From Mucidula mucida (Eukaryota > Basidiomycota > Agaricomycetes > Agaricales > Physalacriaceae), in contig JADNYV010000068.1 in the NCBI GenBank assembly GCA_015501055.1, positions 1 to 64,000 of the forward strand: 64,000 nucleotides of DNA, in the 5' to 3' direction. The position numbers were made by a program, and so were the translations under genes. Shown here in pieces: positions 3,552-63,440 of the stretch (within the stretch, counting starts at the first letter, position 1; each line of letters opens with the position of its first letter). A model generated the notes under the pieces. It did no database searches, had not been told where the DNA came from, and was given only the letters and a program-made list of their open reading frames with translations.

Positions 3552-4413
3552 AATTTTCCTATACTCTTGTAACATTTAGCAACTCGTGTAACGTACCTCA
3601 ACTGTACTTACGAATCGAATGATCAGACCCGTCAACCGGGCTGTACGCCTCCTGCTCAGCATATTCTACTTGTAGAAGATAGATAGGTGCGCTCGAAAAT
3701 AGATACGAAATACTCGTAAGAATACACTCTGGTATGTATGTCATCATAGTAAACATTATCACGAAGACCCAACATGGCGATGTCCAAAGCCCATCCGCCT
3801 CAACATTCCCATAAGTCCCTCCCCCGGCTGAGCCCCGCTCTCACAAAACGAACCCGGCATCACCAGGTCCTCGTCCTCTTCCACCACCACTTTCGCAGGA
3901 TGTGGCACATTGTTCGTCAGGACAGGCGGTGGAGGATCCGCGAGCGTCACGCTCTGGTGCCGCAGTGCATGTCCTTCCACCGTATCCGGCTCCTTTTCCT
4001 TTTCCATTTCCTGCACCTCAACCACCGAATCCTGTTCCACCTCCCCAACGTCGGTATCACTGCTATCGCTCCCCCAGCCGGTCCCACTCAGCGTCTTCGC
4101 CTTCTGCTTGCCGAGACCACTCCCCAACCGCCCAATCGCCCTCACACTGCGAATCGCAGTGCGCCAACGTTGCCGGGGATCAAAGTTCTCGCGCAGGCCA
4201 GCACCCACGTCCACCTCGGCATCGACTTCTTCCTTCAGCCACGCGTGCTCGAGCGCCTGCTGCGCGGTCAATCGTAGTACAGGATCTGGGTGCAACAGTG
4301 CCGTTATGAAGGCCTTGGCGGAGGGCGACACGTTCTTCCAATACCGGTCGTGAAATTCGATTTTCGCAGCAGTGGTTTCGCGTATGAGAGTCTTTATGTC
4401 CTCGCTTCCAAAG
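3552..4413 (-). pseudogene. Duplicated 3' end of the CaM-kinase gene
   Basis: This is a near-identical copy of the end of the kinase gene at 6524-8196 together with its 3' flank (compare 6339-7190). It encodes the last lobe of the kinase (EDIKTLIRETT onward), the HPDPVLRLTAQQALEHAWL motif, the calmodulin-binding-like RQRWRTAIRSVRAIGRL and the acidic tail, stopping at 3759-3761. It lacks the ATP-binding and catalytic exons. At about 4413 the sequence switches abruptly to family A copy 2 within a short shared stretch (GAAGCGAGGACAT). The frames do not match across the join, so transcripts from family A would read the kinase part out of frame to a stop near 4180. The differences from the parent (for example EDEDLVMPG against EEEDPVMPG) show it is not an assembly echo. 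Confidence 0.85.
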
Positions 4414-6135
4414 CGCAAGAGCGGACCGCATCGTCATAGCGAGGTGTGCAAGATGCTTGGCTCGCTCGTCGGAGTCGCCGGGCACCAAGACATATTCGCC
4501 CACCATCAGGGGAATATGAGCCGTGAACACATCACATAGTTCGCATCCTAAGCGATTAACTGTGAACTCCGACCCCAGATCCTGTACATCATCCGCCCCG
4601 CGATCAGGAGGAAATGTTCGCGTTATGACATGGTCCCGGTTGAGGACGTACGAGAGAGAACAGCTTGGACGGATTTCATCGAGGCAAGGTGTGCAAAGTG
4701 TCTCCGTCTCCGCGCTAAATGAATGGAAGTTCTTATGTAGATTCCATCGGGGGTAGGTTCTAGAAAGCGGTAAGTCGACGTTGTCCAAATACTTAAGTTC
4801 ATTGAGGACTGACTCGAAGAAGACGAACGGGTCCTGAGGATTCTGTATTGCGCGCGTAAAAAGGGAATTGTAGATCATCGACCAATGAGTGGAAGCTGAA
4901 TGAGGATTGAGCCCGTTTTTAGGTGTGTCATAAAGGTCTGAGGCATGCAAGCAGATCGTCAAGGACGCACGGACGTTGTAGTCTAAAACCACTTTTAGAG
5001 AGTCCGGGAGAGGCGTGCTCGAGGAAGTCGACGCGTATCGATATTTCGAGAGAAATTCGGATGCAAGGTCTCGAGCACGGTGAGACAAGCCTTTGAGGCC
5101 ATCTACTACGGCTTTCTGTTATTGGACAATCGTTAGTGAGACCAATGTCGGGAAATAAGCCACTTACACGAATCCAGGCGTCTGGGAGTCCTTCAGGCTC
5201 CCCGAAGAGATGCACCCAATTTTGAATCTCTTCTGGGGGTTCCAAGGTAACAGTGTCGGCGACAGTAATCTCTGCTTCAGAAAGCCAGCGCGCGACGTCC
5301 TCTAGATTGATTGAGAAGAGGTACCTAAGAAACCACCATCAACGAAGGCATGACCAAGCCGCGTCGACATACTGTAGAGTCTCGTCATCCACAACAACTG
5401 GTAGGCGTTTGGTATCCACTTGTCTGTCTGCTGCACATCGAAAGGTCTCGTCGACCGGGCATACATTAGGCCTCAAGCCCACGGACGTATCATTGCTGAT
5501 TTCATCAAGAACACTGCTGGCGCTCCCACCAAGGTTTGCGATGATGTTCTGCAAATGCAGGATATCAAGACGTCGGAGTCTAAAGTTAAGATACCTCTTC
5601 TTCCTAATTCCGACGCGATCCATGACTGGCTATAACATTTCGTTTAAGTTGTTCATTATAACAATTTGGAGCTCGCACTTGACTTGACTTACCCTTGTGA
5701 CACCTTCCACCTCGGCTATGCTACCTGCCCAGAATTCGCCTGTTTTAGACAAATCAAGGAAGACACCATATAACGGGGTCTTCAGGTCTAGTACAGAGTG
5801 CATCGGTAGGGCAGCAGCGACTGTGCCCTTTAGGTGTTCCCGGTGAGTCTCGGACCTTGGCGGTTGGTCGTCTTGTAATAGATTAATCTTATCATACTCG
5901 ACGATGAGAATTGGGATCTCAAGAGTCTTGTACTCCATTGATTGATCAGAGAAGGCATACTATGTTCCCCCACCCAGATCGGATCTCCCCTTCGACTGAA
6001 CCGCATATACGGCAAGTTTTTTTTCTTGGTTCGAACGCCATATAGAAACCTATAGGGAGTTAGAGAACGGTGCATTGAACGAATGGCTGCACATACTCGC
6101 GCACTTCGTCGTCGGGACAATATGGGTACATAGAT
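4414..6135 (-). pseudogene. Family A copy 2, internally deleted and fused to kinase fragment
   Basis: The first exon with YPYCPDDEVRE is present near 6130-6095. The DNA for exons 2-3 and the first part of exon 4 is missing: a short divergent segment joins directly to the TATGCCTTCTCTG point of exon 4. The remaining modules are recognisable: LEIPILIVEYDKI with LPMHSVLDLKTPLYGVF (5938-5690), LDILHLQNIIANL (5600s), and the long last exon with VGEYVLVPGDSDERAKHL (about 4500). The copy then ends mid-exon at the kinase junction, so the C-terminal YPI-G-F-like half of the second module is lost. Compared with copy 3 it is about 70-75 percent alike in protein, so it is an older paralogue than copy 1. 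A functional product is unlikely. Confidence 0.75.
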
Positions 6136-13910: not shown

Positions 13911-14986
13911 CTACTTCGTCGCCGCATGCTTCGCTCTTGGTTTGATCTTATTCTTCCTCAAGCTCAGCGGCCTGTCCTTCTTCCTCAATCGCGCATACAC
14001 GCCGCAGGCATTACAGACCTGGTCGCCCGCTTTGTTTCTCCTCCAGACGCTTGTCGTGCGCGTGTGACAGTGGCTACACTCGGGCCCATTCTTCGCACCA
14101 TCGCTACTGTCATCATCTGCCTCCGCGTCTTCCTGATCAGCATCGATGAGCTCTTGGGGACGCAGCTTGTGCCGCTGCTGTAGATATAGTCCGCACGCGT
14201 TACACAGCTGCCTCTGAGTACCTGGCTCGCGTCGCCACAAAGGCGTCGACGTGGCATGACAGTGGGAGCACGACTTTTTGGCAGGCTCTCCCTCGGAAGG
14301 ACTCCCGCCATGAGCTGGGGCTGTGTGAGAAGTCGAGGGTCTTCTCGCCCCCAATCGCGCCGACGTGGATACTAGGTCTTCGAGGTGCGACACGTCAGGC
14401 TTTTTTTCTTCGTGGTCTGGAAAGTCGCCAAGTACCGAAAGAGCGGGATCCCAGAATGTAGGATGGTCGTTCATAGACGACCATTCTGATGGGCTAACCG
14501 CAGGCGGCAGGGAAGGATGGTTGTTCGTCCATGGAGAGCCCACGTCGTCCCTCACGGACGAATATCGACGGCTGTAGAGCGGCATGTGCATGTCTGGGTC
14601 GGGGCCCAATGAATCCCCGCGATAGGCGGTGGACGACCAAGGGAGGGTCAAATCCATCGATGAACGACGTAGATTACTCATCGTTGACGCTGATGAGCTC
14701 GTAGCACCCCCACTAGTGATAGTTTGAGATTGACGTGGAAATGCAGTGCTGAGCTCGTCTGTGGTGGCGTGATATGTCAATGTCAAACGAGCCAAAACGT
14801 TAAGAATGTATACGTACTCATTTCAGCACCCGAACTAAAAGGCCACATATCCGCTGGTGAATCGGATGTGGGAAAGAGAACGGACTCGTCAGAGTATGAG
14901 AAATTCACGTCGCCACAGTCGTCAGGATATATTAGTGAATGTGGCAGGTTGGGATACATATCATGGACGTCCCAGACCAACCGCAC
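13911..14986 (-). CDS. GATA-type transcription factor with two zinc fingers
   Basis: Two exons, 14986-14818 and 14758-13911, join in frame to give about 338 residues. A disordered S/P-rich N-terminal two-thirds precedes two GATA fingers: CSHC...CNAC with an 18-residue loop (TSTPLWRREPG, about residue 217 on) and CSHC...CNAC with a 17-residue loop (TTSVWRRNKAG, about residue 283 on). Each is followed by a basic tail (HKLRPQ; LRKKDRPLSLRKNKIKPR, a likely nuclear signal). Such factors bind GATA sites in DNA. The two fingers are only about 25 residues apart, joined by an acidic D/E-rich linker without the cysteine-rich block that marks fungal siderophore repressors. The target pathway is therefore not assigned. 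An alternative start (MYPNLPHS) lies 27 bases downstream. Confidence 0.93.
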
Positions 14987-19860: not shown

Positions 19861-20879
19861 ATGAAGGTATATCTGGCTACCATCATCGGAAGGGCTCTGA
19901 CTTCGAGTTTGTCAGTGTCAGAAGCGGATATTGTTTCAACTTCGCCACTTCTCATCACACCGCTGGTTTCAGTACGTACCTGAGGAAACGTGAACTCTAG
20001 CTGACTCAATGCCTCAAGGTCTCCAGATGAATTTTATGAGCCCAATCGTATCCTTCCGATGACCTTGCCAAGGAATAAGTGCGTCGAGGCAAAAAGTTCC
20101 TCCCGTTCACTAATTCTGTTTGCATCTTGGTCGAGCCACTCCATCCTGTCCTCGGTCTTCCGCACATGCTCATCTGTAAGCTCGCTGACCGTCGAACTGG
20201 GGATCGTCGTGGGCCATGGAGCGTCGAGCTTGACAGACAGTTCCAAAAGAACCTTCCTACGTACATCGACGGCACTGGCGGACCCCCCGTAGTGGGAAAA
20301 CTTGGGCCGTCGGAAGACGACCCGCAATGGTTCTACGAGTTCTACCGATGGAGGTACATGAACGATGACCACCGCGCTGAGCAGAAGACGTACGAGAATC
20401 TCACCGAGGCGCAGAAGCTGGGTCTCGTGCCGAAATGCTTTGGACGTGTACGCATCGCTATGTCGTCCGGCACCTCTATCCATCCAGCTCTAGACGCCAT
20501 CGACGGTCTGTTGATGGAATACATTCCCGGTCGGCTTATGTCCTCCATTCGCCCAGGAACCGACATATCCGTGGCGGAAGCGGAGGTCATTTCCCAAAGA
20601 ATTCTTGATCTAGCGAGGCGGCTCCGCCGCTACGGCGTCTCCCATAATGACCTCCATTCCAACAACATCATCCTTCGCCATGGAAGCAATGACCCGGTCA
20701 TCATCGACTGGGGGCGCGCGGGCTTTGATGCCCTTTCCCACAAAACCTTTTCAGCACGATGGATGGATATCTCGATGCGACAGGACTTCTATTCCGATAT
20801 ACGCAAAGTCTTGAGGCGCTCGGATGGGAACATTTGGCATCGCTTTAGTACTCCTCTTTCGGATGCGGGAAACGATTAG
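19861..20879 (+). pseudogene. Kinase-like protein, copy 1 (C-terminally truncated)
   Basis: Exon 1 (19861-19971) encodes MKVYLATIIGRALTSSLSVS. The main frame runs from about 20079 to the TAG at 20877-20879. Kinase-like motifs are VSHNDLHSNNIIL (catalytic loop, D and N kept) and VIIDWGRAGF, the D-W-G metal site seen in protein-kinase-like and aminoglycoside-phosphotransferase-like families. LICKLADRRTGDR and LLMEYIPGRLMSSI fit the N-lobe and hinge. Compared with copy 2 the protein stops at SDAGND and lacks about 70 C-terminal residues. Compared with copy 3 about 10 bases are missing near 20095, which breaks the frame between LPRNKCVEAK and KFLPFTNS. It is the best-preserved of the copies but probably not fully functional. 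Substrate unknown. Confidence 0.7.
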
Positions 20880-25694: not shown

Positions 25695-28561
25695 CTATAC
25701 GCCCGTCCGGTTGAAGGTGTTCTGCGATGAGCTGTTACGCTCGGTAGTTCGTATGTTGATACAGGGAGTCGCAAGTTTGGCGTTGTCATAGTACTCAGAA
25801 TACATTCTCATGATTTCAAGAAGTGGCCAACCAGGGCTCACACTATAACAGTACAGATTCAACGGACCGATATCCTCCACATTTGGTACGAGGGATCAAG
25901 CAATCTTTGCATAGCCGTCGTCGCATGTGTGTCCATTTTCTCCGTCAGACCAATCCCAAAAGTCTCCGAACAAAAGACTCTCAAAAGATTATACAGGCGA
26001 AAAGTGTGGTAGGGATCCAGGAGATTGAATCTGTACTCAGACGCATCTCGGATGACACACTATCATAGTGTCAGTTCACGATGTTACGCTTCACTCGAAA
26101 AACACACCTTTCCGTCATCGTCTATCCAACCCAACTTTGTCTCGACAATGTTACGCTCCATCAGAAAACCGACGATAGGACCTCTAAGGCAATGGACCTC
26201 CCAAAGTGCAAGAGCGGACCGCATCGTCATAGCGAGGTGTGCAAGATGCTTGGCTCGTTCGTCGGAGTCGCCGGGCACCAAGACGTATTCGCCCACCATT
26301 AGAGGAATCGCAACAGTGTACACTTCAGATAATCTGCGTGCCAAGCGAGTGACCGTCAATTCCGGCCCCAGATACTCTACATCTCTCATTGTGCAATCGG
26401 AAGGAAAGTTCCGCGTTATGATATGGTCCCAACCAACCTTGTAGAGGAGAGCACAGCTTGGTCGAATTTCCTGAAGATCATTGGCAGAAGATTGGAGATT
26501 CCCGTGCAGTTTCCATTGAGGGTAAGACCTGGGAAAAGGTGAGGCAACGTTCATGTCACAGGCTGCACAGAGGACTGACTGAAAGTTGGTCAACGGTACC
26601 GTATCCTGCTGAGTTGCGCGCATAAAAAGAGAATCGTAGATTGCTGCCCAATGAGACGAAATTGAATGAGGATGGAACACGTTTGCGGACATCTTATCAA
26701 GATCAATAGCGTGCGAGCAGATCGTCAATGAAGCCCGGATGTCGAAGCTCAGAGACGCTTTCTGGGGTGCTGGGAGCGTCGTGTCCATGGTAGTCGAGGA
26801 ATGTTGATAGCCCGACAGAAACTCAGTTACGAGGCCTTGAGTACGATCGGACAATCCCTTCATGCTGTCCGTTACGACATCCTGTAATTTTACAATCATT
26901 CACGAAAGATCGTCTGGATAGATGCCCCCTACCTGAATACAGGCCTGTGAGAGTGGCTCGGGCTCCGTGAAGAGACCCATCCAGACCCGTATCTCTTCGG
27001 ATGGTTCCACAGTAGTTTGACGGTCCTTGGCACCAATGATGTTTGCCTCAGAAGCCCACCTCTGGACATCGCTCACGCTACGTGAGAAGATGTACCTGCA
27101 AGATCATAATCAATAGGGGCGAAAAAATCCAGTGGCTTACACCTACTGCAGGGTCTCATCCTCCACAAGTGGCGGGTGCTGAGTATCAATTGCCCATCTG
27201 TTCTTCGCACATCGAAAGCCCTCCTGTGAAGGCAGTTTGATGTACCTCAGTTCCGAGGAGTTATGGTTTCCAAGCTCGTCGAGAATACTAATCGAGCTCT
27301 GGCTGAGGTTGGCGATGATGTTGCGCAAATGCAAAACATCGAGCGTTCGGTGGTCAAAGTTAAGAACCGTCCCAGGATTAACGCTGATGTTATAAATGGC
27401 AGGCTATACGGTGTTGTTGAGAACACTTTGCTCAAGATTTCACTCCACTTACCATTGTAACGCCGCTTACCTCCTCCAGAACACCCGCAAAACAGTCAGC
27501 TGTATACCTGCCGAAGAAGAGGCCAAACACAGGTGTCTTGAGTCCTAGTGCAGCGTGCATTGGTAATGCAGCAGTAATTGCGGCCTCTAGGTGTTTCCGG
27601 TGAGCCTGGGACCTCGGTGCTTGATCATCTAGCAGTAAATCGATTTTGTCATACTCAACGATGAGAGTTGGGATCTCAAGCGTCTTGTCCGTGATCGATG
27701 GCGCAGAGAAGGCATATCCGGGATGAAGCTTGCGCGCCTCAAGGAGGCGGCTATCGGTTATGGGGACTACTGCCGAGAAGACAACGTCTGGAACGATGAC
27801 AGGCCACTCGCCCAGGTCACCCGGGAACAAGTTCCATCGAGGGCGGAAGCTAAAAAATGTCAGTCGTTGAGAATGTTCGGATCCTATAAACTCACCTAAT
27901 ACTGACACCCGTATCCTGCAAGTCATCATGCCAGATAGATGCCATAAAGGAGTTGTAAAGAGCCGCCCAAGGCGGTTGAAGGCATCGTACAACATCGACC
28001 GTTGTACAAAGAGCACGACTGAAGTGGTGTAAGGTGTCATTGGAGTTCGAACCTTGCTCCATCTTAAGAGGATAGAGATTGTACACCGCTTTATTTGAGG
28101 CAGTATCACGGCGCATACTCAGGATGGTATCTTGGTATTCCTGCATTGAAGCGGGTAGCTCGAGGCTTCGCAATTCCTAGCATCAGACAAATCAAAATGG
28201 GCAACAAACATTTTCTTGAAGACACACCTTTGTCCCAAAAACGTCGGGCCAAGAGCACATAAACATCTTGTTGACAGCGTCGACGAGGTATTCAATATCT
28301 GGCCATGACTGGACTGATTTCCTCGCAACAAAAATACGTCCTCCGGGTCGGTAGACTCTTGTGATAGACACATCATGCCTTTGTTGAAGTCGAAAATTTT
28401 CACGTCGAAGGTCGTAAATGAACCTATTTCAGCCTTTAAAAAATGTTGGAATGAACGAACAATCACACATACTCCCGGACCTCGTCGTCAGGACAATAAG
28501 GGTACATTACCGAGATTTCCAGAGAGCTAAGGTCTCTGTGGTGGTGCGAGGAATAACTCAT
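25695..28561 (-). CDS. Family A protein, copy 3 (complete): two degenerate PD-(D/E)XK-like modules
   Basis: At least eight exons from the ATG at 28561 (MSYSSHHHRD, YPYCPDDEVRE) to at least 25870. In order: an N-terminal region with RPGGRIFVARKSVQSWPDI and KAVYNLYPLKMEQ; a first module VIVPDVVFSAV, IPTLIVEYDKIDLLL, RKHLEAAITAALPMHAAL, TPVFGLFF; a helical linker (LDVLHLRNIIANLSQ); a VWMGLFTEP exon; and a second module LMVGEYVLVPGDSDERAKHL, AMTMRSALALWE, GPIVGFLMERNIVETKLGW. Both modules share the layout of the E-x-K region in the 1359-3540 gene, but catalytic lysine or acid positions are changed, so they may be binding folds rather than nucleases. The last part (25870-25695, SVSPGWPLLEIMRMYSEYY) is in another frame and may be a final exon. 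Flanking inverted kinase-like relics suggest a duplicated accessory segment. Confidence 0.65.
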
Positions 28562-38597: not shown

Positions 38598-41500
38598 ATG
38601 TCGGGAAGCGCTCCTCCGTCCGAGTCTACACCGCGAACCGTGCCTGTAGCTACCCTCAGGAAACGGGATATTATGACGCAGATGTATGCTGAAAAGGACG
38701 CGAGCATCTACGACACGGTAATTGACCGCTTTATTCTTATGATCGCGCTAACAATCCATCATTTTAGTTCAAAGACGTGTTTTCCGAGACTCCGACGCAG
38801 GCAGACCAGAAGATTACCTGGCTTACCAAGCTGCGCGGATTGCTGAACAAACTTGAACCTGAGAACCAAAAACTCGCGCGTAACCATGTCGGAGAGCAGG
38901 TTTGGTCAGAGCTTACCGCCCAACACCTTGATCGTATTGATTGGGTGAGTATGACTTCATGCGCGATACAGCGTTAACTGATTTGTCATTCAGTTCGATT
39001 CCGTATTCAAGTCCACAAATTGCAACAGTAACCGGCGCCAGTGGGTCGCGGATTTGCGGCACATAGTGTCCTTGATGACACCTAGTGAGATGTCACAAAC
39101 GCGTGCAAAATCGCGCCCGGAATTTTGGAGCGAGCTCGTCTTTCTTGGTATTCGGGCCGTCGACGGACGCAAGCTCAGCGGGGATACAGTTGGGCATGCC
39201 CTCGTCCTTGAATGGGATCTTTTCCCAACTCCCATGGCGGACCCTGTTAGTCGTCTTCTCGTCTTGTCAGTCATATCCTTACCGCATCCTGCAGTGCGAC
39301 AGGTGTAGAGAACTTCACTTGCCTTGCGAAGTTGCGTACAGCGCGATGACGAGCAGCTGTCGGGAGTGCCTCATCACGGGACAACAGTGCGCTTCGACGC
39401 TAGGGAAACGAAAAAGAGCCGATGACGATAGTCCTCCTCACGCAGCTAAGAGATTCGAGACCCAGTCGTCTATGGAGAGGAGAGACGTCACCCTAGACGA
39501 CGTCAGTAGCAATAACTCTTCCGTCTTCCTCGTTTGTCTAATATTATTATCCAGGTTGTAGCCCTGTTACCCCTTCATGAGGTTCTCTCCCTATTCAATA
39601 ATGTCGAGAAAAGATTCACCGACGAGAATGCATGGGTGAAGGGTCTGATGCAGCTTCTACTTGCTATGGACAGAAAACAACACGCAGCAGCACGCGAAAA
39701 AATTGGACCGGATGTGTGGGCAAAGATTGTTTACCAGACACTTCCACTCAATACCAACGGGCCTTATCCTTTCATCGATGGAAAACTCTACGGCGCCACA
39801 TCAATCGTCGATTGGGATCTCGTGCCAGTTCCCTCTTCTACTCCAGTTCGTTGGCTTTCTTCTTACCCTGTCTTCCCGTACTCATTACATGTTAAAACAG
39901 TGCCCTCACTGTGCCAAGCGTAAAATTGCTTGCCTGTTAACGAATGCGAATGCAATGCTCTGTCGAGCGTGCATATTTATCCGACGAGGTTGCGAGCTCA
40001 AGCGTCCGCACCCAGAGCGGAGGTCGATGCGGCAGGCCGGCTTAGAGTCGGATTTCCAGTTTGACGGCATTCGACAGCATATGAACATAGACGTGCAAGT
40101 ACCGCCATTCGCCGCCAATGTAGGCACTCATCGCTTTCCGTTATAAAAGCTGATATTTCGCCTAGGTCGTCGCATTGTACAAAGATACGAAAGCCCGTGA
40201 CAACCATCCTAAATGGATGTGCGATCTACGAAACATGCTGAAGGGTATGGACGATGCGACCCTGAACACGCTACAAGATGTCATCGCTCCAGAGCACTGG
40301 ACTGAGCTTGTGTTCGCTGGGATCAAGGACAGCATCCCAGAGGCAAAACTCGATAATAAACGAGTATATATAACAGATTGGGATTTGTTTCCCACAAAGA
40401 TGAGCTTGGCCGTATGTCATGGCAGTGTATCCTTCTTATACGCGACCTGATGTTGTTACTTGTAGTGTCACAACTGTGTCGAAAAGGAAGTCGAGTGTCA
40501 AAATCGACGCCGGGACAATGTTGGACGTCATGTAAAGTGCAGGCGGTGCGTGATGCTAGGGATGAGGTGTTCGCCTAGCGACGAGCCCCGACCGACGCAA
40601 GATATGTCGGTAGAAAATGTGCGTGTCTTCTCTCCTTTCCTTTCCCTCCAGTTACCCTCATCGCCTCGCCAGTTCATCGCCGTCTATTACGACAAAACGA
40701 AAGTTCAAAGACTTCCTGACAGCGAGTGGATTGGGGAATTACGAGATTGGGCCGCGAAACTTGACGCACAGGCACACGCGAAAATCAAGGCAGCGGTGAC
40801 ACGCGGACATTGGGTCCAGATGGTGCTTCTCGGGCTACCAGGACGGAAGACCGTCAAGTTGACTTCGAGTGTAATTTACGGGAAGCGGAGTGTTTATGAC
40901 TGGGATTTGGTCCCGACGGCTGCGCTCAAGGCGGTATGTTATCTCCCTTCGTATGCGTATGTCGTATTGAGACAAATCTAGTGCGATGCGTGCACGAAAC
41001 GGAAGACCCAGTGCGAGTACATTGTCGCGGGGAAGAAAGAGAAGAGACCTTGTAGAAGCTGTCATCTTGCAAAGCAGGACGAAGAGTGCTGGGAATCGAG
41101 TTTGAAGCCTGCTTCGAAGGCTAAATCTCAATCGCCGGTCAAGGCCCAGTCGTTGGCGGAGGAGACGCCAGTTCAAGCCCTACCGCCCCCTAGTGAGCCG
41201 CTGCCGATTATGGAGACGACTGGATCTATATCTCGGGCGCATTCTGCACATCCAGAGCCCTCCTCCTTACTCCAATCATCTCAGGTACCTACAGCGACTG
41301 CCAGCAACGATGTACTCGCTCAAGTGAGTTCCACCCCCCTTGGTTTCTGATGATCTCGTTCTGACTTACCTCTTCCATGATCAGTTCACGAACCTTTACG
41401 AAACTCCCCCGCTGGAAGATCCCCAAAGAAAGGCTTGGTATACTGCTTTGCGCGATCTTGTGCCGAAAATGTCGGAGCATGAAGAAGCGCAGGCAAAGGC

Positions 41501-42975
41501 GATAGTCAGCGCTAATGATTGGAGTGAGATGGTCGCGTTGTCGATTGACTACAACGCGCCTTTGGTAGGTACCATGATGGCGCGGACCAACATCAAGTCA
41601 TGGGACCTGATTCCTACGGAATGGGAGAAAAAGGTATGTAACGGTTAACATGTGCCGATTAGTCGTTCATCAAACTTGCGCGCAGTGCCCAAACTGTGCA
41701 CCAAGGGGACTGCCATGTCATTATCCCATCAAGGGCTCCAATAGGACGGTGAAGTGTCGGCGTTGCAGACTCGCACATCGGACGTGTCCTGGACCTCGAA
41801 AAAGGGTTGCAGGTAATGAAACAGATGAGGACGAGGAAGTGGACGAGGAAGCGAACAAGGAACATGACGAGGAAGAGGAGCAGTCGAGCTCATCGTCATC
41901 TGAAGACGACGAACTGCCGTCGCCACCGCCGCCACCCCGACGAAGGACAATCATGATGGCAACGCGCAGCACCTATGGCCGGCGCAAGCCTCAGGCTGTC
42001 CAGTCACACGTAAACAGTAGTCCATCTAGCGAAAGACGGATGACCAGGACGGCGTCAACAGGAAACGAACCGCTTGTGGCGCTCCCTATGGATCCAAGGA
42101 AGAGGCTTCCGAATGGGGTACTACCGCCGAAGTCACCTGTGAAGCAGGGTGAGAAGGGCAAAGAGGTGGCGGTGGATTTGGATAATCTGGAGAATAACGC
42201 CAATCAGACAACCGAGCGCACGGATGGGTTGGAATTCAATTCCACACTCTCCACGGCGAGATCGAGTGGCGTTCCTAAAGCGACCCCTTCGCAGGTGGCT
42301 ACGTCCCAGGATCGGACTCCTTCTACGAGCACGCAGGCTACGGCTCCAGCTCGTCCGCGTCCTGAATCGTCGCCTTCTCGAGAAGAATATCCGGAGTATC
42401 GATTGCCGACCCCGTCACCTCAACGAACGATTCATCGGTCACTACCGCCACAAATTCAATCAGCGTCAAGTATATCCATGTCCGGCCCTCCTCCGACACT
42501 TCAGCCTCCCGTACCACCGCCGTTCTCAGGCTCGACAGCGGCTAGCCCACATTCGCAAGCAATGGACGTTGACGACTCATCGTTCCGTGTGCCTGACCCT
42601 CCGCAATGGCATTCTCGTCCGTCGTCGGGACAGTCGAGTGCGTTTGAAAGGCAGCCGTCCTTGTTCAGCGAGCGCTACATGTCCCCGATTGCGAGTATGG
42701 CTGAATCGCGGATGCTGGATCGGTTGGAACGCGAGCTCGATAGAAAGGAGCGTGATTTGGAGAGGAAGGAGCGTGAGGTCGAGAAGCTGCATGCGGCGAA
42801 GGATGACTGGGAGGTCAGGGAGCGGGGCTTGATGGAGGAAAATAGGAGGTTCAAGGAGGAGAGCGAGGCGCTGAGGCGACGGGTCAAGGAATTGGAGGAT
42901 TTGCAGGATGGTGCGCGTAAAGAGGAGGATAGTCTGAGGGATCGGCTGAAGGTGTTCTTACAGCTCAAGGAGTGA
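38598..42975 (+). CDS. Tandem [W-D-L-P helical module + Zn2Cys6-like cluster] protein with coiled coil
   Basis: Twelve exons, all introns phase 0: 38598-38717, 38768-38944, 38994-39245, 39295-39501, 39555-39845, 39901-40119, 40166-40411, 40466-40618, 40673-40933, 40982-41323, 41385-41633 and 41686-42975; about 1268 residues. Exons 3, 5, 7, 9 and 11 encode an about 83-97-residue helical module (W...LR..., then WSELV/WSEMV-like, then D-W-D-L-x-P-T); exon 2 is a short form lacking the W-D-L end. Exons 4, 6, 8, 10 and 12 each begin with C-x2-C-x6-C, then 9-13 residues, C-x2-C-x6-8-C: CDRCRELHLPC, CPHCAKRKIAC, CHNCVEKEVEC, CDACTKRKTQC, CPNCAPRGLPC. This matches the Zn2Cys6 spacing of fungal transcription factors, five times over. 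Exon 12 adds an acidic/serine stretch, a P/S-rich region and a terminal coiled coil (LERELDRKERDLERKERE). Nuclear DNA or RNA binding is inference; I know no described protein of this layout. Confidence 0.85.
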
Positions 42976-43405
42976 GGTGCTTTACTGTTTACTGACCTAC
43001 ATTCACTGTAACACGTACATATGACACATATAGATCTGTAACCGGTCCCTGTATGAGGCGGGCATATTCCAGGCGTATTCACATCGACACCTGCGCATGT
43101 AAAGGGACACTGACAGGGCTACTGCGATCACTCTTTAGTTTCTTGTTCAACGGTTCATCTTTCTTTGTAAAATAACAGGACATTACGACGCCGATAACGA
43201 GCATTCGAAGTCGTAAGTCACGTGAACTTTGTGCGCACGACTACGATGATACCCCAAACTCTTTAGAGTCCCAAAGGACAAAGCGCACTCGGAGCAGAAG
43301 AATTCTATAGAAGACAATCAACGGTCAGGCATCGGAGAGAAAAACATGGACCCACCTGCGGTAGAATGGGCTGATCTTTCGTGTCTGTTCAATTTATCGT
43401 TAGTC
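42976..43405. other. Gap between convergent genes
   Basis: It holds the 3' ends. A plus-strand frame at 43346-43555 overlaps the next gene and is likely a shadow. Confidence 0.5.
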
Positions 43406-45008
43406 TCAAATGTCATTTCGCACATCAAACATTCTAAGGCGGATATCAGCTATCGAGGACTCGAACAGGTATGGAAGGATGCTTGTACCTCTCAAGGTAT
43501 CCTTTCTACGCGCAAGGGCAGTATTTCGTTTCTGTCGAAAGGCGGAGCCTCTTGACAAGCGTGGGGAAGATCCAATGGTCGTCGAACTCGATGCAGCCGT
43601 CGCCGGGTCGGATACGGAGGTAGCAGACACCCGAAATGTAGATGTGCTACAACCCATAAAATTTCCGGTTCTCGGAGTAGGAGTTATCATTGAACTGAAT
43701 CGGCTGTCCATACCCAAATGACTGTTGTGTGGCGCATGATCATTATATCCGATGTTCTGTGATGGATGACCTTGTGGGCGCGATTTGTGCGATGAAGGAC
43801 CTGAAGAACTCGATGGCTCAGAGAATGACTGTGAAACTGTTTGGTAGTACGAGGAGAAGTCATCGTCTTGGTGGTCTGCCAGCATGCCTGTATCTTCAGC
43901 GTCAGCACATGGAGGTGTCAAGAAGCATTTGAATACCTTTGTCGGTAGTGGATTTCTGCGCATAAGGATGGTTCCGTCCCTGTCCAAAGACGGAGCTTTC
44001 CGACGACGGAGGAGCGGATCCAACAGGAAGCTGTAATGTATCACTACCCTTAGATTCTGTCGATGTTATCGCAGATGAATGAGGAGTGATCAACAGGCTT
44101 TTATTGTCTAGTTCATTGTGCCGCGGCGCCTGGGGGATTACGTCTGGTGTGGCGCAATACTGGACTGTACCATGATCAAACATCGGACCCATCCAGGACG
44201 GATTGTGCCCAAAGCTTGTACTGGTGACTAAGTCCAGAGCGCTGTGTATGTCCTCCTTATGTACCACATCAAATGTGGCGCAACTTTGCATGAGAGATGG
44301 ACTAATGCAAGGCGCATTCTGCGAGCGAGATGGAGGATGCCATGAATGAGGGAAATTCCATGAAGAGTTGGCAAAAGGAGGGGCTGGCTGTAATACAGCT
44401 TCGTAAAACGAGGAGAAGGCGGCGGCGTCGTCGTCGTCGCGCTGCAGTCCAGGAAGAACGTCGAGATCTTGAATGCTAGGAGGATAGAGGTGAGTGTGCT
44501 GCTGCTTCGAGAGCGCATTTATGGAGGATTCCAGCATCTCTCTTTCGTTTCCGGAAGGTAGCTGGAGGTCGGGGAAGAGATCAGGAAATTGTTTGTAATT
44601 CTCGAGCAGAAGATCAGCATCGTTCTGTTCAGGGAGAAGGCGGGATCTCCAGGGTGCCTCAGATTTGTCCTGCAAAGTCGGAGGATGCGCTAGATTCAGG
44701 TGGGAGCCGGAGCCAGTCATGATGGTAGGAGCGGAAGGAAAGTGAGGTTTGTTCCAGAATTCGCTCAATCCAAGCCTTATAAGTGTACGGGGCTTGATGC
44801 CTTCAGTGATGAGGTCCCATTGACAACAGGCCTTTGACGGGGCATTTGTTCTCTTTTCGTCACAAGCATGTCTACAGTCCGGGATGAACGAGCCAATTCC
44901 GTCGCTAAGGTTTAATCGCGAGGGGCACCAGGCAACAGGAAGGTAGTAGCCTACTTCAAGAGGTTTTGTACTCTGGTAATCAGGAGGAGGATAACCGTAT
45001 CTTGAAAT
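43406..45008 (-). CDS. Unknown low-complexity (transcription-factor-like) protein
   Basis: A long open minus-strand frame from about 45008 to 43950, then an intron (GTATTCAAATG at about 43946) and a last exon ending at 43406. The N-terminal part has a cysteine/tryptophan-containing piece: VAWCPSRLNLSDG, DCRHACDEKRT, KACCQWDLITEGIKPRTL, SEFWNKP. The rest is S/P/N/H-rich (LQLPSGNEREMLESSINALS, FSEPSSSSGPSSHKSRP) and ends with a basic stretch (FRQKRNTALARRKDTLRG). The first exon and true ATG were not found; the frame opens after a likely acceptor near 45015. The composition suggests a disordered regulator. The C-C-x-W-D-L piece recalls the module of the neighbouring gene, but similarity is too short to claim kinship. 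Confidence 0.55.
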
Positions 45009-45390
45009 CAACCGGCTACAAGTACTTGAATAATTTCAATTAAGCCTTGACATCATTGGATCATACACGTTTCTCAAGGCCTTCCCAATGTGCGTCTTTC
45101 TGAACATGTTCAGATCGGCCAGCCAAGACGACCTCTATAGTGTGCACATTATCGTTACAATTATGGCCACCGGCCAGCATGCACTGGGTTTGGCGGTTCC
45201 ACCAAGACCTCACAACTCTTGAAGATTTCGTTTGATAAAGCAGCAGCAGTTATAGACGGACGGTGCGACCTTGAGTAGTGCGAGAATGAGGCGCCGACCA
45301 CATCGACATGTCGAGTTCGGAGTTCGGAACAAGTCGTTGATCGTTGATCAACAATCGGAGTTACAAATCGCCTCGGAATGTTCCGGGGTA

Positions 45391-46139: not shown

Positions 46140-47036
46140 TCGCAAGCTATAACACATAGCTGGTTTCGGTACGTACCTGAGAAGACGTGGACCTCATCTG
46201 AATGTGCTACTACTTAAGATCTCCCGAAGTCTTCTACGCACCCCACAGCATGCTTCAGACGTCGCTGCCAAGAAACCAATGCGTCGAAGTCAAAGTTCTT
46301 AAAATGTTCCTCCCATTCACCAACTCTGCTTGCATCTTGGTCCAGCCAATCCATTCTCTTCCTGGTTTCCCAGACCGGCTCATCTGTAAGCTTGCTGATC
46401 GCCGGACTGGAGAGCGTCGCGTGCCCTGGAGTGTCGACCTCGAGGAGCAGTTCCAGAAGTCCCTTCCTATGTACATCGAACGCACTGGCGGACCGAAGTC
46501 GACAAATATGGTCTTTCGGATGACGATCCACAGTGGTTACACGAGCTCGACCAGTGGAGAGACTTGGATGACGCCCGCCGACCGAACAGACGGCGTACGA
46601 GCTCTCACCGAGGCTCAGGCATTGGGTCTTGTGCCAAAATACTTTGGTCGTGTGCGCATTGATATGAATGTGGGCACCTCTATCCATCCAGCACTAGATG
46701 CCATTGACGGTCTGTTGATGGAGTACATCCCTGGGCGACTTATGTCCTCCATTCGCCCTGGAAGGGATATATCCATAGTCGACATTTCTCAACGAATTCT
46801 CAATCTGGCGAGGCGCCCCGCCGCTACGGTGTCTCGCATAACGACCTCCATTCCAATAACATCATCCTACGCCACGGGAACAATGATCCTATTCTCATCG
46901 ACTGGGGACGCGCGGCATTTCACGCCCTATACGAGAAAACATTTGTGGATGCATCACGCAATGAGCACCGACTTTCATAGGACGTACGGAAAATCTTGAT
47001 GCATTCGGATGGGAACATCTGGCATCGCTTTACCAC
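46140..47036 (+). pseudogene. Kinase-like protein, copy 3, 5' part
   Basis: Recognisable from the conserved leader-intron region (about 46140) onwards: LPRNQCVEVK, FLPFTNSACILVQP, LICKLADRRTGER, GLVPKYFGRVRI and LLMEYIPGRLMSS. It has frameshifts near 46495 and, by one lost base, at about 46815, just before the catalytic loop, so HND...DWG is only read in another frame. It keeps about 10 bases near 46295 that copies 1 and 2 lack, so here the N-terminal frame is continuous. It is interrupted after IWHRFTT by an insertion at 47037. Confidence 0.75.
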
Positions 47037-58576: not shown

Positions 58577-59505
58577 ATGTCCAACGAAGCACCCGAAACC
58601 GCTCCTCACACACCCGCTCATCACGCCGATGTCGAAATCAAAGGCCGATCCCTTGTCAACAAGCCTTACGACTATGACGGGGACAAGTCCAAGTACAAGA
58701 GCTGGTGGCGATCGATGTTCACATACATCCGGACAAGAAGAACAACCTCACGTCCGACTCCGAAAGGATCGATGTTGTTCTCTCTTACATCCGAGGAGAT
58801 CACGTAGATGCATGGGTCCAGAACTACTCGGACCAGAACTTCGATGAGGAAGAAGAGGAATGGACAGTCTCTTGGACGGAGTTCAAGGAAGACTTGAAGG
58901 AGCGATTTGTGGATTCCAACCTCGCGCGAGACGCGCAAGACCAGATCGAGCGGTTGCGCCAGGGGCAAGACACCGCTCAAGACTTCTTCCAGAAGTTCGA
59001 GGTCCTGCTCACTCAGGCAGGATACTCAAAGGATGACGCATTCGTCGTACGACTTCTCGAGACCAATGTCAACGAGAAGATCATCGACCAGATCTATGGC
59101 AGCCGAGACGGGTTGCCAGAGAAGTACAAGGATTGGAAGGCACAGATCCTTCAGATCGATCAGCTATGGAGAAGGCGGGCGGCGAGCAAGAGGTCCGGCA
59201 TGCAGTCCCGGCCTCAAGCTCCGCAGGTGGCTACATCGAGAGCTAATCCTACAAACCCACCTCCAACGCCGATCACACGACGAGATGCTACCGGTGTTAC
59301 CTATGGAGGAGCCGGCAGGCCGATGGACATCGACAACGCACGTCGAAGAGGACTTTGCTTCAGCTGTGGCAAACACGGCCACGTCAGCAGGTTCTGTCCG
59401 AAGAAGGGTCGACCCCAGACGATTCGGGGTTTATGGACCGAGATGAATGACGAGGAGAAGAAGAAGCTGGCCGAAGAGTTGGGTTTTGCGAAGCTCCCGC
59501 AGTAG
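58577..59505 (+). pseudogene. Gag of the gypsy element (frame broken)
   Basis: Starts MSNEAPETAPHTPAHHAD. The capsid-like part has KYKSWW, then after a one-base slip near 58700 SYIRGDHVDAWVQNY, FKEDLKERFVDSNLARDAQD and QDFFQKFEVLLTQAGYSKDD. The nucleocapsid knuckle is CFSCGKHGHVSRFC (C-x2-C-x4-H-x4-C, about 59360). The stop at 59503-59505 is probably also a slip product, because the pol frame is open straight through this point in the -1 frame, and Tf1-like elements have one gag-pol frame. Confidence 0.85.
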
Positions 59506-62500
59506 ACGCAGTCCTGCCGGAGCAGTCATCAAGGGAAGGGTCGTCAGATGCAGCATTTATTTACAGTACGGGTACTGAAACATCTAAAATATCATCGACG
59601 ACTTCACCAACAAAACCTGCGAAAGAAAGATTTGAGCCAAATACGCCCGAGTGGATTGCACAACGGCTAAGAGAGGATGACGTGTCGAGAGCAGTGGGAA
59701 TTTTGAGAGCATGGATGCCGGAGCGGAGAGAGAGAGAAGCGACGGAGGAGAAGGTGATGGCGATCAGAGCGTTGACAAAGGAAGCTGCGGTGGAAGTTGT
59801 GACAGAGTTGAAAAAGTTGAGGAAGTACATCCGGGGAACAAAGGGGCAGGACATGAAACTCCGAGTAACCATAGAGAGCGTACACAGAGGCTCTGAATGG
59901 GCAACGAGTGCCCTTCTTGACAGTGGAGCAACGGGTTCTTGTGTCAATAAAGAATTCGTCGAGAAGAACGGACTCCCGATCAAGGAGTTACCGGTCAAGC
60001 TCCCTGTCTACAATGCGGATGGAACCCTAAACGAGGGAGGAGCAATCGAAGGTTTTGTGGAGGTCCGGATGAAGATCGGAGATCACGCTGAAAAGATTGA
60101 GTTGGCCGTTACCAATCTCGGCAAAACAAGTATCTTTTTGGGGCTAGATTGGCTACGATATCACAACCCCACGATCAACTGGACGGAATCCACATTGACC
60201 TTTGAGCGATGCCCAGACCGCTGCGGCTATCTACCCGAGTACGACTCACCGGAAGATGAAGGAGAAGACGTAGAAGAGAAGTTGGAAGAGGGAGAGTGTT
60301 TGTTCTGGATGGACTGGGACAACTATCGCAAAAGCGGAGAAAAGCTGAGATCACAACAGCCTTCATCTGCTGCTGCACCTTACATCGAGGAATTCTCCGA
60401 TGTATTCAGCAAGGCGGACTTTGACAAGTTACCGGAGCGAAGACCCTGGGATCACGCGATAGAACTTACGCCTGGTTCCAAACCGGTTGACTGCAAGGTT
60501 TACCCCTTAGTCCATCCGAGCAGAAGGCGTTAGATGAGTTCCTGGAAGAAAACATACGGACGGGACGTATACGGCCATCAATTTCACCCATGGCATCACC
60601 CTTCTTCTTTGTCAAAAAGAAGGATGGAAGCCTTCGGCCAGTACAAGATTATCGGAAGTTGAACGACATGACAATCAAGAACCGATACCCCTTGCCGTTG
60701 ATTCAGGAGCTTATCGACAAGTTGAAGGGAGCAAAGGTTTTCACAAAGATGGATGTCCGATGGGGTTACAATAACATCCGGATCAAAGAAGGTGATGAGT
60801 GGAAAGCGGCGTTTAGAACAAACCGAGGCCTGTTCGAGCCCTCAGTCATGTTCTTTGGACTTACAAACTCGCCGGCAACGTTCCAATCGTTCATGAATCA
60901 CATTCTGAAGGAGTTGATTGACGACGGACATGTTATGTTACTTGGACGATATACTTATCTTTACGAACACTCTCGAGGAGCATAGACAGATTGTACGAAG
61001 GGTATTAGAAATATTACGAGTAAATAAGTTGTATTTAAAACCCGAGAAATGTAGTTTTGAGGCACATACTGTAGACTACTTAGGAGTTATTGTTGGAGGA
61101 GGAGAAGTGAAGATGGATCCGGCAAAAGTGGCCGTAGTGAAGGAATGGAAGGAGCCGACGAAGAAGAAGGAAGTACAGTCATTCCTGGGCTTCTGCAACT
61201 TCTACCGACGTTTCATCCGGGGATTTGCGGGAGTAGCGAAGCCATTGACATCGCTAACCGGGAAGGGCGAGTGGGTTTGGGGCATGGAGCAGCACGAGGC
61301 GTTTGAGGAGTTGAAGCGGAGGATGACGGAAGAACCCGTTCTGATCGTACCACGCGACGACGGCAAGTTTCGAGTGAGGCAGACTCCTCGAACTATGCGA
61401 ACGGGGCGGTTCTTTCCCAGTTGGTGACGGAAAATGGAGACCAGTAGCCTTTCGGTCTCGCGCGCTGAACGAAGTAGAGCGCAATTATGAGATCTACGAC
61501 AAAGAGATGATGGCTATTATGGACTCGATTGACGACTGGAGACAATATCTCCTTGGAGCAAAGGAAACGGTGGAGGTGTTTACCGATCATCAAAACCTCC
61601 AGTACTTCCGGAAGCCACAGAAGTTGAATCGGAGGCAGGCGAGATGGGTTACGGAGTTAGCGGAATATGACATACAGATGATTCACAAGCCGGGCAAGAC
61701 GATGGGGAAAGCTGATGCCTTGTCAAGGATGACAGGCCTTGAGAAGGGGGAAAAAGATAACGAAAACGTTGTTTTGCTCAAGCCGGAGTTTTTTATTTCA
61801 CAAATTCAATTTTCTTTACATACAGTAGATACACCGGAGGACGAATTACTTAACAAAATCAAACAAAGAAAAGGAAACAAAGACAGATACGTACAAAAAG
61901 CATTAGAAAACAAAGAAAAAGGATGGGAAGAGAAGGAAAATGGACTTATTATGTGGAAGGATCGTATTTACATACCGAAGGACAAGGAATTGCGGGGAAG
62001 AGTTATTGGAATGCACCATGATGCACAGCTTGCAGGGCATCCCGGACGATACAAGACCCTCGAGCTGATCACACGCACCTATTGGTGGCCAGGAATCAGC
62101 CGAGACGTCCGGAATACGTAGAAGGGTGTCAAAAATGCCAGGTCACCAAGTCACATCGCACGAAGCCGGCTGCACCTCTTCATCCTATTGATGTGCCAAG
62201 CGAGCCATGGGAATAGTAGGGACGGACATGATTGGAGACTGCCGGAATCGGAGGATACAACGCATCAGCACGTTTGTGGACCATTTCACAAAGCGATTAC
62301 GCATCATACCGACACACACCACTCTGACGTCAGAAGGCATGGCCCGCATCTACCGTGATCGCATTTTCCCCATACATGGGATGCCACGACAGATGATACA
62401 TGATCGCGGTCCACAATACCACTCGCGTTTTATGAAGGAGTTGTACCGGTTGTTGGGCATACAAGGAAACTTTACAACGGCGTATCATCCACAGGCAAAT

Positions 62501-63440
62501 GGGCAGACGGAACGGCTGAACCAAGAGATAGAACATTTCTTACGGTTATTTGTCAACTACCATCAGAACGACTGGCACGAATGGCTACCCTCTGCCGAAT
62601 TTGTTTACAATGATCGGGTACACTCGGCAACCAAAGTCACTCCGTTCTTTGCAGACATGGGCAGACACCCTACAAAGGCACCGCTCCGAAAACGGCATCG
62701 AGAAATGAGACTGCGCAGGAGTTTGCCGACGGCATGAGGAAAACATGGGACGAAGTGGGTCAGCATTGAAGATGGCAAAAGAAGACATGAAACGGTTTTA
62801 TGACAGGAAGCGGACAGAGGCAGTAGAGTACAAGGAAGGCGACAAAGTATGGCTGGAAGGGACGAATCTCAGCACGGACCGACCAATGAAGAAGCTCGAT
62901 GACAAACGCTTCGGGCCGTTCAAAGTGATCAAGAAAGTCGGGACGAGCTCTTACAAGCTCCAGATTCCTCACACGTGGAAAAGCATCCATCCCGTGTTCA
63001 ATGAGGCCCTGTTGACGCCTTACCACGAGCCCCAATTTCCGACGCAACCCCGAGACACGCGTCCACCACCTGTGCTGGAAGGAGCCGAACCGGAATGGGA
63101 GGTTGAGAAAGTGGTTAATTCCCGAAAGTACCGCGGGGGTTTTCAATACAAGGTTCACTGGAAGGGTTACGGCACACACGAGCAGACATGGGAACCGGCA
63201 TGCAATCTCAAAAATGCCGACGAAGCTATCAGCGATTTCCACCAACAATATCCGAACAAGCCGAAGCCACCCGCGCTTGCTCGCATTGAAGTCCCCATGT
63301 CGCAATTTCCATCACATCTATTCCAACCCATGCCACCGCCGATACCGAACCCCTCGACGTCACGCTACCCTCTGCAGCCCTCATGGAGCGACTCTGGCGC
63401 AGAATGGAACTTGCGCCTTAAGGAGGGGGTGATGTTATGA
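59506..63440 (+). pseudogene. Pol of the gypsy element: PR-RT-RH-IN-chromodomain (frame broken)
   Basis: In order: protease ALLDSGATGSCVNKEF (about 59920); reverse transcriptase with [55 protein letters not shown] and YLDDILIF; RNase H with VFTDHQNLQYF and GKADALSRM; integrase with HHDAQLAGHPGRY, CQKCQ, VGTDMIG, IHDRGPQYHSRF and QTERLNQEIEHFL (zinc and D-D-E residues present); VHPVFNEALLTPYH (GPY/F-like); and a chromodomain EWEVEKVVNSRKY, YKVHWKGYGTHEQTWEP (about 63100-63230). Frame slips lie near 60510, 60938, 61376, 61426, 62119, 62213, 62685 and 62752. The final stop (63438-63440) lies inside the 3' LTR. Chromodomains direct integration to modified histones in related elements. Confidence 0.9.
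63420..63432 (+). other. Polypurine tract
   Basis: AAGGAGGGGG followed by TGA directly before the 3' LTR; primer for second-strand synthesis. Confidence 0.8.

Follow-up and report, generated by a model that had tools for sequence, protein, structure and literature searches.

The gene described here lies at positions 38598..42975, on the forward strand, of a stretch of 64,000 nucleotides (nt) from the mushroom Mucidula mucida (Agaricales, Physalacriaceae; contig JADNYV010000068.1, positions 1 to 64,000), to which we refer as the window. It reads as a single gene of 12 exons, with a frame of 1268 codons open from start to stop. The exon boundaries were set by hand from the sequence; all 11 introns are of the GT-AG type, measure 46-61 nt and lie in phase 0, and one of them, 40619-40672, is stop-free and could be retained. 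Five times along the encoded protein of 1268 amino acids (aa) appears the pattern C-x2-C-x6-C-x(9-13)-C-R-x-C-x(6/8)-C, in clusters that start at aa 184, 350, 505, 643 and 840, with linkers of 10, 9, 13, 12 and 12 residues and last loops of 6, 6, 6, 8 and 6 residues, respectively. A six-frame scan of the window returned five matches to this cysteine pattern, all of them inside the array gene, and none in 20 first-order Markov windows. An earlier annotation made from the letters alone (the sequence-only reading) had proposed a single 12-exon gene encoding five Zn2Cys6-like clusters, each placed after a module with the motif WDLxP. Both proposals are borne out by the open frame and its uniform introns and by the connector between WDLxP and the first cysteine, which is exactly six residues long in all five units.

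The arrangement of the exons follows that of the protein, each repeat unit being encoded by one exon pair in which a module exon precedes an exon that carries the cluster plus linker. Since every intron is in phase 0, a unit could be duplicated without frame shift, and the array may have arisen by duplication of these symmetric exon pairs. The independently annotated model of a paralogue of the same species in nr, CPB85DRAFT_250707 (P0001), likewise splices just before the first cysteine of the unit. Modules 1 to 5 are homologous, as in leave-one-out profile comparisons they scored 42.8-53.5 bits, while 1000 shuffles of each reached at most 17.3 bits and never the score of the true sequence. 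A sixth, N-terminal module (module 0, aa 37-99) scored 35.2 bits against the profile of the other five (0 of 1000 shuffles as high), and is found without WDLxP and without a cluster. In an AlphaFold2 model of the unit 4 module, helices are predicted at 16-27, 32-41 and 44-53. The fixed length of the connector suggests that module and cluster form one folded piece.

Beyond the last cluster, the protein continues into a low-complexity tail and a coiled-coil-like end, within which aa 1187-1261 matched DUF3450 weakly (E 0.046, 13.5 bits against a cut-off of 32.6). The C termini encoded by the window gene and by relatives on contigs 305, 416 and 198 of the same assembly resemble each other in all six pairs, with 0 to 3 of 300 shuffles scoring as high, though this likeness constitutes moderate evidence given that coiled coils are low in complexity. 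The coiled coil of the sequence-only reading is thus retained as a stretch recognised by inspection and resembling the ends of its paralogues, from which oligomerisation may be presumed. The coordinates of all these elements are collected in Table 1.

Table 1. Elements of the array gene, in window positions; Zn_clus scores are to be read against a cut-off of 21 bits.
Element	Position	Strand	Details
Array gene, exons 1-6	38598-38717, 38768-38944, 38994-39245, 39295-39501, 39555-39845, 39901-40119	+	open frame, GT-AG, phase 0
Array gene, exons 7-12	40166-40411, 40466-40618, 40673-40933, 40982-41323, 41385-41633, 41686-42975	+	open frame, GT-AG, phase 0
Module 0	38768..38944, begins just before the end of exon 1	+	profile 35.2 bits
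Unit 1 helical module	38994..39245, WDLFP 39213-39227	+	53.5 bits leave-one-out
Unit 1 Cys6 cluster	39295..39390	+	Zn_clus 17.5 bits
KRKR stretch after cluster 1	39406-39417	+	
Unit 2 helical module	39555..39845, WDLVP 39813-39827	+	42.8 bits
Unit 2 Cys6 cluster	39901..39993	+	loop AKRKIA, basic pair kept; Zn_clus 12 bits
Unit 3 helical module	40166..40411, WDLFP 40379-40393	+	51.7 bits
Unit 3 Cys6 cluster	40466..40570	+	acidic loop VEKEVE; Zn_clus 18.4 bits
Unit 4 helical module	40673..40933, WDLVP 40901-40915	+	48.0 bits
Unit 4 Cys6 cluster	40982..41089	+	loop TKRKTQ, basic pair kept; Zn_clus 18.3 bits
Unit 5 helical module	41385..41633, WDLIP 41601-41615	+	45.8 bits
Unit 5 Cys6 cluster	41686..41787	+	basic second triad CRRCRLAHRTC; Zn_clus 12.7 bits
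Low-complexity tail	41788..42708	+	presumed disordered from composition; S+P+E+T+D 51%
Coiled-coil-like stretch, aa ~1181-1268	42709..42972	+	by inspection

Relatives of the array gene were sought by single-protein searches of the organism's own assembly (59.9 Mb, 1047 contigs), and the resulting counts are lower bounds. Units were found by reading frames on contigs 305 (one), 126 (one in each of two neighbouring genes), 86 (one), 416 (four) and 198 (about seven); contigs 416, 198, 126 and 86 were read as frames and not as full gene models. Contig 351 carries a near-copy of part of contig 126, and CPB85DRAFT_250707 matches by eye pieces read at contig 126. Judging from the order of the units, those of contig 198 probably belong to one gene, and likewise those of contig 416. 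Among 17 of the roughly 20 units (three of contig 198 were excluded), the connector measures six residues in 15, the other two, both on contig 198, having 5 and 7. When 15 units were placed in a tree, the four contig 198 units included grouped together (99/99), as did the contig 126 pair (99/99); the five window units did not group, and 9 of the 12 inner branches were left without resolution, with bootstrap unsettled. In contig 416 unit B and contig 198 unit 6 the second triad of the cluster lies in a different frame from the first, which could reflect a missed intron or a frameshift. A match on contig 571 (E 1.04), with an ordinary-looking cluster and a basic loop, was not counted as a member of the family.

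A different architecture appears on the minus strand of contig 305, where a seven-exon reading of 759 aa contains, in this order, two PHD stretches, a degenerate module, a good module, a cluster and a coiled-coil-like end. The PHD stretches matched PF00628 (34 bits, cut-off 24) and PHDvar_NSD (28 bits, cut-off 27), as in PHD-finger chromatin readers; for the window protein, the Pfam scan lists no PHD match. The good module scored 48.4 bits, a value reached by none of 1000 shuffles, and the degenerate one, weakly, 1.8 bits (1 of 1000), while the C-terminal part gave a GPS2_interact match below threshold (17 of 27 bits). If the fourth intron is left unspliced, the PHD frame stays open until beyond the point where the module frame has its first Met codons, so that a two-gene reading needs an overlap or a second start inside a module. 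A fusion of PHD fingers to a unit would be the likelier interpretation of this locus.

A single cluster per protein is the norm among fungal zinc-cluster proteins, many of which bind DNA as dimers. In order to compare the array with such ordinary clusters (PF00172), we took 18 of the roughly 20 array-family clusters, leaving out the two whose second triad lies in another frame (contig 416 unit B and contig 198 unit 6). The ordinary set derived from 37 Pfam-matched places in the same genome, of which 33 were taken and 4 dropped as likely copies; 18 of the 33 fit the strict cysteine pattern, 16 of them distinct. Zn_clus matched 12 of the 18 array clusters at E<=10 (best 0.0023), as against 5 of 54 shuffles in which the cysteines were held fixed (best 0.009; Fisher 4.5e-6), a likeness to Zn2Cys6 clusters that goes beyond the spacing of the cysteines. 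Nevertheless, the Pfam cut-off of 21 bits was not reached by any of them, the whole protein scoring 8 bits and the best single cluster, with the best E of the 18, 18.4 bits. The profile check asked of the clusters comes out above shuffles and below the family threshold at the same time. The usual Zn2Cys6 spacing, C-x2-C-x6-C-x(5-12)-C-x2-C-x(6-8)-C, is kept by four of the five window clusters, the linker of cluster 3 being one residue over. Structural and profile comparisons pointed weakly in the same direction: with VIA-align 2, the five matches listed over the cluster in an AlphaFold2 model of CPB85DRAFT_250707 were GAL4 (two), LEU3, PUT3 and PHO7, with a weak overlay, and profile matches in the PDB were to LAC9 and PUT3 (E 0.31-0.92). 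DUF3716 (PF12511), a family of unknown function, matched one of the 18 array-family clusters, that of contig 305, below threshold (E 0.24, 11.8 of 22 bits). A scan of the full 1268-aa protein, with HMMER filters that drop most weak matches, listed three families at E<=10, and PF04082 was not one of them.

The array protein thus shares with GAL4, LEU3, PUT3 and PHO7 the six-cysteine spacing, a weak likeness beyond the cysteines and a coiled coil, but differs from PF00172 proteins in having five clusters, the first of them as far in as aa 184, and a helical module before each. Differences are also evident within the clusters. CRxC occurs in the second triad of 18 of 18 array clusters versus 1 of 16 ordinary ones, linkers span 9-17 versus 5-11 residues, and proline is present in the linker of 8/18 versus 16/16. 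The mean charge of the first triad is 0.4 in the array and 3.5 in the ordinary set, which leans basic because its places were chosen by Pfam score and the match richest in K/R was kept where a locus had several. Lys17 and Lys18 of Gal4 read CGG, and the position of Lys18 is basic in only two (window clusters 2 and 4) of the 13 array clusters with a six-residue loop, against 14 of 16 ordinary clusters. Charge varies widely from cluster to cluster, as the sequence-only reading had noticed, from the acidic loop of cluster 3 through the basic pairs kept by clusters 2 and 4 to the strongly basic window cluster 5 and second triad of contig 416 unit D. PROSITE PS00463, in the form used here, fits window clusters 1, 2 and 4, fails for 3 and 5 and fits none of nine paralogous clusters, whereas 15 of 16 ordinary clusters fit it with the first residue omitted. 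The sub-cut-off scores, the scarcity of the basic loop and the invariant CRxC suggest a divergent Zn2Cys6-like repeat family whose members would not clearly be CGG readers of the Gal4 type.

In addition, part of the family aligns with the Zn_clus profile out of register. Ten of 11 clusters scanned singly matched it, five in register and five with the first triad on the second half of the profile; the best-matching stretch of window cluster 3 and the match of cluster 5 are aligned in this way. First triads were also scored with position weights taken from the ordinary set of 16, and 8 of 12 came out nearer to the ordinary second triad. A half-swapped cluster is suggested by these alignments, and we do not claim it.

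Elsewhere in the window, the convergent neighbour of the array gene (43183-45035, minus strand) has, towards its 3' end, two C2H2 zinc-finger matches, one to zf-C2H2_6 (26.1 bits, cut-off 25) and one to zf-C2H2 (22.6 bits, cut-off 25.2), and two long frames upstream without Pfam match. The protein encoded at 13911-14822 (minus strand) contains two stretches of GATA zinc-finger type (PF00320, 91.5 bits), and frames at 58678-63440 (plus strand) resemble by eye a Ty3/gypsy-like retrotransposon, with a zinc knuckle, polyprotein-like stretches and a chromodomain-like end. Two pairs of open frames also look alike by eye, 4180-5118 with 26084-26899 (both minus) and 20079-20879 with 46202-46999 (both plus); the two of these four scanned against Pfam, 26084-26899 and 46202-46999, gave no match.

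Regarding function, our best guess, held tentatively and at somewhat less than even confidence, is that the protein is a nuclear, oligomeric and multivalent scaffold bound to chromatin or DNA. Its unit would comprise the helical domain, WDLxP, a connector fixed at six residues and a divergent cluster of the binuclear, Zn2Cys6-like kind, and duplication of symmetric phase-0 exon pairs would have multiplied such units. Through the coiled coil at its C terminus, the protein would assemble into an oligomer in which many weak cluster contacts sum, so that, once on chromatin, it might bind DNA or chromatin multivalently and with low sequence specificity instead of reading CGG sites singly, and could organise or recruit a regulatory complex. 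We infer the presence of zinc, the nuclear location, the oligomerisation, the mode of duplication and the DNA or chromatin ligand. The nucleus is indicated by the PHD fusion of contig 305 and by K(K/R)x(K/R) stretches, which exceed those of shuffles in the contig 305 protein (0 of 1000 as many) and in CPB85DRAFT_250707 (12 of 1000); in the window protein they are no more numerous than in shuffles (471 of 1000 as many).

Nearly as likely as this scaffold on chromatin is one with protein ligands and no nucleic acid, in which the units would be interaction domains and the zinc clusters would stabilise the module. The nearly constant connector (15/17), which suggests that the cluster packs on the module, the loss of the basic contact loop in 11 of 13 clusters, the wide differences in charge and the low-complexity tail followed by a coiled-coil-like end would all be expected of it, but it has to accommodate several strongly basic clusters, and a purely structural role leaves the arginine of CRxC, present in 18/18, unexplained. 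An RNA-binding array, making weak cluster-RNA contacts as part of a nuclear RNA-processing factor, is unlikely. The proposal of the sequence-only reading that the clusters genuinely read CGG half-sites as an array, contacting several spaced triplets, agrees with the cysteine spacing, with the fit of clusters 1, 2 and 4 to PS00463 and with clusters 2 and 4, which are basic at both loop positions and could still read CGG; we nevertheless regard it as improbable and do not uphold it, in view of the rarity of a basic residue at the Lys18 position, the nearly neutral first triads and the failure of clusters 3 and 5 to fit PS00463. Least probable of all is a gene-model artefact or a decaying gene, that is, several genes or a pseudogene, an idea which the two paralogous clusters split across frames might recall but which is opposed by 1268 open codons, six cysteines in each of five units, 11 same-phase GT-AG introns, the exon pairing, C-terminal likeness to the paralogues and module homology never equalled in 1000 shuffles.

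As far as the open-access texts on multi-cluster proteins could be consulted, in part and with subscription journals mostly outside this coverage, no array of five cluster-bearing modules was found, nor any protein with more than two clusters. That the layout is undescribed, as the sequence-only reading supposed, would agree with this open-access literature. The closest case, mentioned in PMC10305253, is a transcription factor of Alternaria bearing two Zn2Cys6 domains, which has in common with the array protein more than one cluster per protein; it differs in combining two clusters with a transmembrane domain, and the portion of that paper available makes no mention of a repeated module-cluster unit. 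In the parts available, other articles deal with several factors, or with the domains in general, and not with arrays (PMC11750091, PMC10734572, PMC11656773, PMC5573122), name no array (PMC5415576, PMC3998117, PMC10141177), or consist of reference lists (PMC12915358, PMC12997857).

Overall, we put forward, with rather low confidence, a hitherto unnamed family of fungal repeats whose transferable unit would combine a helical domain with a Zn2Cys6-like cluster. This unit would have been multiplied by exon-pair duplication from one to about seven copies and joined in one case to PHD fingers, providing a modular and tunable reader of chromatin that departs from the rule of one cluster per protein. 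If this were true, its logic would be comparable to that of C2H2 arrays, and counts of transcription factors based on Pfam cut-offs would miss such proteins. Mushrooms would then have a new route to multivalent reading of chromatin or DNA, by multiplying a divergent cluster together with its helical partner in step with the exons.
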